From Thermococcus sibiricus MM 739 (lineage in GTDB: Archaea > Methanobacteriota_B > Thermococci > Thermococcales > Thermococcaceae): 64,000 bases of DNA. The position numbers were made by a program, and so were the translations under genes. The notes under the pieces are model-generated. The model made no database searches. It saw only the letters and a program-made list of their open reading frames with translations, and was not told the origin of the DNA. The DNA is taken from assembly GCF_000022545.1 (NCBI RefSeq), contig NC_012883.1, positions 1,170,276 to 1,234,275 of the forward strand, written 5' to 3'. This document shows positions 22,779 through 24,390 of this stretch, piece after piece; positions within the stretch are counted from its first letter, which is position 1, and each line of letters opens with the position of its first letter.

Positions 22779-22803
22779 ATTCTAAAGGACAAGAGTCAAC
22801 TTT

Positions 22804-22843
22804 TTGTCATAATGACAAATAAGGTTGGAAAAGATTTTTATAG
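22804..22843 (+). promoter_or_regulatory. Palindromic operator and promoter of the sodium symporter gene
   Basis: Perfect 15-base palindrome TTGTCATAATGACAA (22804-22818) directly upstream of BRE-like GGAAAAG and TATA-like TTTTTATAG (22835-22843). The predicted start near 22867 leaves a leader of about 125 bases, containing a possible hairpin with GTATAG/CTATAC arms. A dimeric regulator is likely; its identity is unknown. Confidence 0.5.
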
Positions 22844-22992
22844 ATGTCCTCCATTCTAATACGTTGATGCACTATGATATTCAGGAGTGAGGGTTTTTGG
22901 GAGTATAGTTGGTGAACCTTTTCTATACGTGGGTTATTTAGTAGTCCCTAACTCTAATTTCGACGTTTCAAAACTGTTTGGAGGTGTAGTTT

Positions 22993-24276
22993 GTGGCCAG
23001 AGAAACTTGGGGAAGTAGAGTAGGTTTTGTTGCAGCATCTATAGGAAGCGCAGTAGGTTTAGGAAACATCTGGATGTTTCCAATGAGAGCCGGCCTTTAT
23101 GGAGGAGCTGCGTTTTTAGTACCCTATTTGGTATTGCTATTTACAGTAGGAGTTGTAGGACTTACTGTAGAATGGACTTTAGGAAGATCAACCAAAGGAG
23201 GCCCAATAGAAGCGTTCGCCAAAGCACTACCCGGAGGAAAGTACCTTGGAATACTTGTCAACATAATAATGATAATGATATTTGCCTTTTATTCACTAGT
23301 ACTTGGATGGATACTTAGATACTTTATCGCCACCCTTACAGGAGAATTAACAAAAGCTAATCCAGGTGCATTCTTTGATGCTCTTGCCTTTAGTAAAGAG
23401 GCACTTCTGTGGCAGTTTATAGTAATAGCAATAACCGTAGGTATAGTGGCAATGGGTGTTCAAAAGGGAATTGAAAGAGCCAACAAAATCATGATGCCAG
23501 CCCTTTTTGTGCTTCTTATCATGTTAACAATAAGAAGCGTTACACTTCCCAACGCCTATGAAGGACTCAAATTTTACCTTTTACCTGACTGGAGCAAAAT
23601 GATGAGCGGAAAAACATGGATGATAGCACTATCACAGATGTTCTTCTCTCTGAGTGTTTTGGGTACTACAATGGTAGTTTACGGAAGCTACCTGAAGGAG
23701 AGCGATGACATTCCTCTATCAGCAATAGCAACAGCTTTCGGGGATACAGCGGTAGCAGTCACAGCGGGTTTCTTAATATTCCCTGCAGTATTTTCCTTTG
23801 GAGTCGAACCCACAGCAGGACCAGGACTAGTTTTTGTAACACTCCCCATGGTATTCCAAAAAATGCCTGGTGGAATATTCTTTGGGATGTTGTTCTTCCT
23901 CTTGTTGATATTCGCTGGATTGTCCTCAACAGTTTCAATGCTCGAAGTCTACGTTGATTCAGCAATTACAAAGCTCAATATGAGTAGAAAGAATGCCTCG
24001 GTTCTCCTAGGTCTGGCGACCTTCCTAGTTGGAGCCCCCTCTGCACTAAGCCCCTCATACTTTGATTGGATCGCAAACATCTCTACTGTTTATATAGGCC
24101 CATTAGGAGCCTTAATAGCAGCTTTAGCATTAATAAGGCTTGGAATAGAGAAGGCCTATGAAGAACTCAGAAAGGGGGCCTTAATAGAAGTCCCAGAAGC
24201 CTGGAAACCTTGGGTAAAATACCTTTACCCAATAGTGATAATAGTCATATATATCTCACAGTTTGTACTGGGGTGA
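22993..24276 (+). CDS. Neurotransmitter:sodium symporter family (LeuT-like) amino-acid transporter
   Basis: Sodium-coupled importer of an amino acid or similar compound. 427 aa, 11 hydrophobic helices. The helix-1 signature 'GSAVGLGNIWMFP' (about residues 18-30) contains the unwound substrate/sodium site; Met replaces the common Arg of GNIWRFP. Later 'FAGLSSTVSMLEVYVDS' is the helix-8 sodium-site region. The GTG at 22993 follows GGAGGTGTAG. Followed after four bases by a 32-codon gene. Confidence 0.9.
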   Translation: MARETWGSRVGFVAASIGSAVGLGNIWMFPMRAGLYGGAAFLVPYLVLLFTVGVVGLTVEWTLGRSTKGGPIEAFAKALPGGKYLGILVNIIMIMIFAFYSLVLGWILRYFIATLTGELTKANPGAFFDALAFSKEALLWQFIVIAITVGIVAMGVQKGIERANKIMMPALFVLLIMLTIRSVTLPNAYEGLKFYLLPDWSKMMSGKTWMIALSQMFFSLSVLGTTMVVYGSYLKESDDIPLSAIATAFGDTAVAVTAGFLIFPAVFSFGVEPTAGPGLVFVTLPMVFQKMPGGIFFGMLFFLLLIFAGLSSTVSMLEVYVDSAITKLNMSRKNASVLLGLATFLVGAPSALSPSYFDWIANISTVYIGPLGALIAALALIRLGIEKAYEELRKGALIEVPEAWKPWVKYLYPIVIIVIYISQFVLG

Positions 24277-24280
24277 TAAA

Positions 24281-24379
24281 ATGGACATAGTCTACCTCAT
24301 AGCAATATTTGTAGTATTAATAATATACGGTCCCTTGATATGGGCTCTCTACCGGCTTTCAAAAGCTTCCACCTCTTAA
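24281..24379 (+). CDS. 32-aa single-pass membrane protein, likely symporter partner
   Basis: Tiny gene, four bases after the symporter stop, with an ideal ribosome site (GGGGTGA, 24270-24276) before its ATG. The product has one helix ('IAIFVVLIIYGPLIWALY', about residues 7-24) and a short Ser/Lys tail. Bacterial transporters of this family often have a small membrane subunit encoded next door (MetS beside MetP), so a partner role is a reasonable inference; no experimental support is known to me. Confidence 0.6.
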   Translation: MDIVYLIAIFVVLIIYGPLIWALYRLSKASTS

Positions 24380-24390
24380 TTTCTTTTTTT
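24380..24390 (+). terminator. Oligo-T terminator after the symporter operon
   Basis: TTTCTTTTTTT directly after the 32-codon gene, just before the ribosome site of the next gene. Confidence 0.45.

Follow-up and report, generated by a model that had tools for sequence, protein, structure and literature searches.

A candidate MetS-like accessory subunit encoded behind an 11-helix NSS transporter in Thermococcus sibiricus, with a possible frameshift leader upstream

The 32-residue membrane protein encoded directly behind a LeuT-type transporter in Thermococcus sibiricus MM 739 is best explained as a MetS-like accessory subunit of that 11-helix transporter, a reading given a probability of about 75%; the small protein would associate with the transporter and be needed for transport. 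Both genes lie in a stretch of 64,000 nucleotides (contig NC_012883.1, positions 1,170,276 to 1,234,275; here called the window), and the transporter, a predicted sodium-driven carrier of amino acids, belongs to the neurotransmitter:sodium symporter (NSS) family. Small proteins encoded behind NSS genes were sorted into types A to F, with the window pair as type A. The features at this junction were as follows.

22993 to 24276, plus strand: NSS (SNF, LeuT-fold) transporter of 427 amino acids, nearest solved structure MhsT (from Pfam/NCBIfam and structure comparison)
24272 to 24277, plus strand: ribosome site GGTGAT, overlapping the transporter stop codon
24281 to 24379, plus strand: A-type small subunit gene for a 32-residue single-helix membrane protein, stop included (from the open reading frame [ORF], constraint, and profile linkage)
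24380 to 24390, plus strand: T-rich tract directly 3' of the small ORF (from sequence)

The small gene and its transporter

The small ORF translates as MDIVYLIAIFVVLIIYGPLIWALYRLSKASTS, 32 residues followed by TAA, and its frame is exactly the one described in the earlier note. The transporter stop codon (TGA, 24274 to 24276) is followed by four bases, TAAA, and then by the ATG of the small ORF. The ribosome site, which the earlier note had called strong, was scored as GGTGA with a spacing of 4. An alternative TTG start 18 bases upstream of the ATG would give 38 residues; the conserved N terminus of the A-type relatives begins at the later ATG, not at the TTG. The single clean helix that had been proposed was also recovered, as one hydrophobic segment with a maximum mean Kyte-Doolittle value of 2.74 (17-residue window). 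The C terminus is basic, and Lys and Arg are absent before the helix.

The small ORF is a real protein-coding gene. Over the first 30 codons of 14 A-type copies, the mean proportions of synonymous (pS) and nonsynonymous (pN) differences were 0.67 and 0.16, and the median ratio of nonsynonymous to synonymous rates (dN/dS) was 0.096, computed from the 56 usable pairs among 91. By codon position, the 14 copies showed 582, 386, and 1361 differences at positions 1, 2, and 3. Short frames are common: across 344 kb of the T. sibiricus genome, a hydrophobic short ORF of some kind followed 18 of the 301 genes scanned, as would be expected if the small ORF were an unrelated or nonfunctional frame carried in the operon. 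Requiring a ribosome-site match lowered the count to 6 of 301, one of them the target itself, which leaves 5 of 300 other genes; at the Thermococcaceae NSS 3' ends described below, by comparison, 59 of 61 had a short hydrophobic ORF. Both scans had an upper size limit of 75 residues. Purifying selection, the co-occurrence with A-type transporters, and the retention of the small ORF where the next gene decays make a chance frame highly improbable.

Searched against 94 Thermococcaceae genomes, a profile of the small protein gave 16 strong matches (expectation value [E] no higher than 1.4e-18), and all 16 were directly behind A-type NSS genes, two of which are broken. The next four matches (E, 0.002 to 0.09) were located elsewhere. 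The A-type frame was kept behind 14 of the 14 A-type transporter genes read to the end, as well as behind the two broken copies. One broken transporter (L234; G012:C34) is interrupted by an insertion with ORFs that by eye resemble transposase genes, and the other (L023; G004:C221) has a frame break; the small ORF behind each is intact. An aminotransferase gene lies downstream of the small ORF in the window. This gene was partly deleted, reduced to a short remnant, or undetected in five loci (L006, L007, L008, L010, and L011) in which the small ORF was intact, so that the small ORF appears to track the transporter rather than the gene that comes after it. In place of that gene, L013 and L229 have only a relative with 24 to 25% identity downstream of the small ORF. 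The T-rich tract was also present 3' of the other A-type small ORFs whose sequence was displayed.

The earlier note had suggested looking behind orthologous symporter genes for a conserved small frame, whose absence would have counted against its reading, and one was found well beyond type A. A short hydrophobic ORF lay directly behind the NSS gene at 59 of 61 Thermococcaceae NSS 3' ends (37 of the 94 genomes), and at 56 of the 61 it had 24 to 75 codons, a start at -20 to +24 bases, and a ribosome-site match. At L010 and L011 the hydrophobic ORF was present without a match to the ribosome-site rule applied, and at L044 it is cut by the contig end, its beginning resembling that of L161. These counts omit fragments and loci without a readable end (L022, L023, L024, the G012:C34 copy [L234], G004:C156, G034:C76, and G038:C27).

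The transporter itself was assigned to the SNF/NSS family, with the LeuT fold, by its match to Pfam PF00209 (212.5 bits; cutoff, 27), and it also matched NCBIfam NF037979. Its nearest solved relative is MhsT (PDB 4us3, 4us4, and 6yu2 to 6yu7; E, 5.5e-78; about 40% identity). A predicted model (mean predicted local distance difference test [pLDDT] score, 95.3) gave TM-scores of 0.91 to MhsT and 0.93 to LeuT (PDB 2a65), with which the fold is shared. MhsT has 11 helices and LeuT has 12. The alignment of the window transporter to LeuT stops at LeuT residue 465 of 519, so that the window transporter, like MhsT, is without LeuT's last helix.

Possible kinship with MetS and the types of small partner

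The interpretation as an archaeal counterpart of the small subunits of bacterial transporters, offered in the earlier note as a possibility, was supported in substance, with a remote profile similarity to MetS that lies below curated cutoffs. MetS (NF033493 and NF033494; PF16951) and the A proteins alike have about 30 to 60 residues and one helix, are encoded directly behind an NSS gene, and carry a mid-helix glycine followed by a basic tail. Against a profile of 21 MetS sequences, 10 of the 11 sequences in the A set scored above the best of 261 transmembrane segments from the T. sibiricus genome; the A-set median was 14.1 bits, which 0 of 660 composition-keeping shuffles reached. The hhalign score of A versus MetS was 25.6, with a maximum of 12.8 for 15 controls (12 transporter windows and three helix-12 windows), and a separate profile-profile comparison of the two gave a probability of 81%. 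Among all the other profiles compared, MetS ranked first for A, B, and C and second, after A, for D. The relation of the B set to MetS was suggested by hhalign only and was indistinguishable from shuffles in the hidden Markov model (HMM) test. The 32-residue length limits the certainty of a common-ancestry test between A and MetS, and on these comparisons the A protein looks like a distant relative of the bacterial NSS small helper subunits.

Several observations weigh against an accessory subunit related to MetS. The window protein scored 11.7 bits against NF033494 (cutoff, 70) and gave no match to NF033493, and PF16951 was over its cutoff in 0 of 94 Thermococcaceae genomes. With the bacterial-type MetS profile alone, the A-set median was 9.8 bits, 10 of 11 sequences were above background, and 2 of 660 shuffles reached the median; with the archaeal MetS profile alone, the corresponding values were 5.0, 1 of 11, and 13 of 660. 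In the reverse direction, with the A profile, background was exceeded by one of the 10 bacterial-type MetS sequences and by five of the 11 archaeal ones. Because the 11 A sequences are closely related, they do not count as independent evidence. At mid-helix, Gly-Gly is invariant in 14 of 14 aligned MetS sequences, in contrast to Gly-Pro in 9 of 9 aligned A sequences. Two Thermococcaceae NSS genes of one clade (L014 and L033) had no small ORF behind them, nor did any of 11 NSS ends in two other families of the same class have a short hydrophobic one. In contrast to the window transporter, none of its 79 nearest relatives outside the Thermococcaceae had a comparable ORF bearing a ribosome site, and the titles of the MhsT structures (titles only) name MhsT alone.

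The 79 relatives comprised 78 bacterial sequences and one haloarchaeal sequence (L134); one of 80 was dropped (L094, no stop). Two short hydrophobic frames, neither with a ribosome site, were found behind their transporters. Widening the size limit to 140 residues added one ORF (L077; 91 residues, with a ribosome site), which was rejected as a partner because by eye it resembles a shortened piece of another transporter. Matches to PF16951 elsewhere in the Thermococcaceae were likewise set aside, as the 43-residue group seems to consist of chance frames lying within other genes (L151 was the one locus inspected). Scans of L184, L189, and L194 found no small partner ORF. Two haloarchaeal NSS genes (L191 and L193; G121) are followed, behind the stop, by a frame of 107 residues that has a strong ribosome site, GGAGGTGA; its single hydrophobic segment is N-terminal, and its tail looks soluble. 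This protein is perhaps a longer kind of partner.

In a transporter tree of 51 rows, the A and D transporters fell inside an MhsT-like clade in which no other row has a short partner. The MetS-bearing, B, and C transporters, in contrast, were placed in clades apart from this one. A and D, the small-ORF types of the 11-helix clade, clustered together with 88/83 support, and the small ORF may have been either gained in A and D or lost in all their relatives.

This grouping would also fit a reading in which the small protein is the missing twelfth helix, supplied in trans to the 11-helix transporter, and not an extra peripheral helix. The transporter ends at approximately the end of LeuT helix 11, which would leave its C terminus outside, and a helix running from outside to inside fits helix 12. 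With helix 12 from the three longer NSS groups (the B, MetS, and C transporters), the A profile scored at most 10.8, compared with 25.6 for the MetS small proteins; moreover, the longer B and C transporters also carry small proteins, and most 11-helix relatives carry none. Such a complementing helix is therefore considered improbable. Regulatory micropeptides such as AcrZ, SgrT, and MgtS offer a further comparison. The size, the single helix, and the tight linkage to one transporter would suit a dispensable micropeptide that adjusts the turnover, assembly, or inhibition of the transporter without being required for transport, as would the absence of a small protein from most kin transporters; we regard this role as unlikely.

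As an accessory subunit, the small protein would be made together with the transporter from one short mRNA. The overlap of the ribosome site with the transporter stop codon points to translational coupling, in which ribosomes terminating at the TGA would restart at once on the small ORF, and the T-rich tract directly behind the small ORF probably marks the transcript end of the two-gene unit. The absence of Lys and Arg before the helix, together with the basic tail, suggests that the protein would insert as one helix with its N terminus out and its C terminus in. Its conserved Y-G-P-L-x-W stretch may pack against the 11-helix transporter, where the peripheral helix would stabilize or enable the transport cycle. 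Trotschel 2008 is reportedly the primary paper on MetP-MetS. That two-subunit importer serves as the analogy for the accessory helix (PMC3219685, in excerpt). In a search of titles only, with subscription literature mostly outside its coverage, no title on MetS or NSS small subunits or on Thermococcus small proteins dealt with archaeal NSS small subunits.

The types of small partner were the following.

Type A: the window transporter and the 32-residue protein
Type B: the long paralogue, a 525-residue NSS transporter, with a small protein such as MKGSALAFMALAWGIIFIWMYLAVSKLLKAEQKS
Type C: an NSS transporter of about 500 residues with the small protein MEGSVIASMIVVLGFYWGLTLYFVKLALEKEKEKAQAS
Type D: L032
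Type E: L161
Type F: L061, with two small ORFs

Type E is a curated MetS-family protein (NCBIfam MetS_like_NSS NF033493, 47.2 bits; cutoff, 25); representatives of types A, B, C, D, and F were below every curated Pfam and NCBIfam cutoff. MetS_like_NSS was above its cutoff in 13 of 148 genomes of Haloterrigena's phylum, as it was in two controls, M. jannaschii and Methanosarcina acetivorans. NCBI models thus already include archaeal MetS proteins, and archaeal MetS as such is not new. All six bacterial B transporters examined (L181, L183, and L211 to L214; Acetoanaerobium, a Clostridium, and four other genomes of the same phylum), which are 53 to 59% identical to an archaeal one, were followed by a small ORF that has a ribosome site. 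For L181, the only one whose small protein was scanned, none of the NCBIfam models gave a match. At L240 (G006:C134, minus strand), an NSS gene is followed by two tandem single-helix ORFs (2609 to 2740 and 2744 to 2857). The neighboring genes there belong to the proline racemase and ornithine cyclodeaminase families, and our guess is that this transporter imports (hydroxy)proline.

A candidate frameshift leader upstream

The region upstream of the transporter gene contained three further features.

22803 to 22819, strand not assigned: palindrome TTTGTCATAATGACAAA, upstream of the TATA-like box
22829 to 22842, plus strand: TATA-like box AAAAGATTTTTATA, upstream of the leader ORF
22874 to 22915, plus strand: short leader ORF MIFRSEGFWEYSW followed by a stop, with a possible slip site TTT TGG at 22895 to 22900

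A 13-codon leader ORF, mostly MxFRSE(C/G/Y)FWxYxW followed by a stop, was found in 10 A-type loci of the genus (SWSE in L004). Including shorter versions in L011 and L012, leaders were present in 12 (L001 to L012) of the 14 A-type loci examined; the diverged L013 and L229 had none. The palindrome, a possible operator, was present with 0 to 3 mismatches in each of the 10 A-type loci that share the leader within the genus and was absent from L011, L012, and L229. In the window, the +1 frame (22887 to 23018) is open from the slip site across the transporter start, and one slip is needed. In all 12 leaders, a +1 slip at TTT-TGG (CTT-TGG in L012) took the reading frame beyond the start of the transporter gene; with no slip or a +2 shift, this happened in 0 of the same 12.

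A tandem related motif was found in 62 of the 94 Thermococcaceae genomes, some of its occurrences being transporter leaders, and the reversed control pattern was found in 0. A gene starting like a trpB-like one followed in 28 of 34 leader loci, and TIGR01415 was confirmed for the two that were scanned. The trpB-like leaders were L263 to L291 and L253 to L255; 34 leader loci were looked at (none was found in L292), 32 were taken, and 28 were scored. Serial +1 slips at two or three sites reached the gene start in 27 of 28 trpB-like leaders, all at an ATGA overlap, and stopped four bases short of it in the remaining one. Without a slip or in the other frame, the start was never reached (0 of 28), nor did any leader have one frame open throughout. 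In copies 1 and 2, the stop came no more than three codons after the Trp codon (exception, L270, with ten); in copy 3 it came within seven.

Conservation of the leader as a peptide was considered and rejected. An excess of third-position differences was seen only in segment 3 (49, 57, and 91 differences) and not in segments 1, 2, and 4; since this is one of four segments, passage through the frames, not the peptide sequence, seems to be kept. Comparison of the leader with Rfam gave only a subthreshold microRNA match.

The sequence shows that tRNA-Phe could pair again with UUU if the ribosome slipped by +1. Frameshifting at hungry codons has been studied in Escherichia coli (PMC5009743, in excerpt). 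By such a mechanism, plentiful Trp-tRNA would allow UGG to be read, and translation would stop a few codons later; when Trp is scarce, tRNA-Phe would re-pair one base on and the ribosome would continue in the next frame. The leader may in this way be linked to tryptophan scarcity. The transporter substrate is likely to be tryptophan or other aromatic amino acids, because the leader is common to the trpB-like gene and because the transporter is kin to MhsT. At even odds, in our estimate, the locus encodes a tryptophan-responsive two-subunit importer, in which a MetS-like subunit was kept or recruited by an 11-helix NSS transporter whose leader reaches the start only by a +1 slip at UUU-UGG, with the trpB-like gene under a cascaded hungry-codon switch. 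No title describing such a frameshift leader was matched in a literature search limited to titles, with subscription literature mostly outside its coverage.

Meaning for NSS transporters

NSS transporters are models for human neurotransmitter transporters. To our knowledge, bacterial MetPS is the system in which an NSS small subunit has been studied experimentally. In one archaeal family, short hydrophobic partner genes lie behind nearly all of the NSS genes read (59 of 61). They comprise several sequence types, of which the NCBIfam and Pfam models searched name only one. The role of a small subunit in a LeuT-fold transporter thereby becomes testable in a hyperthermophilic, structure-friendly pair, alongside natural 11-helix relatives with or without a partner.
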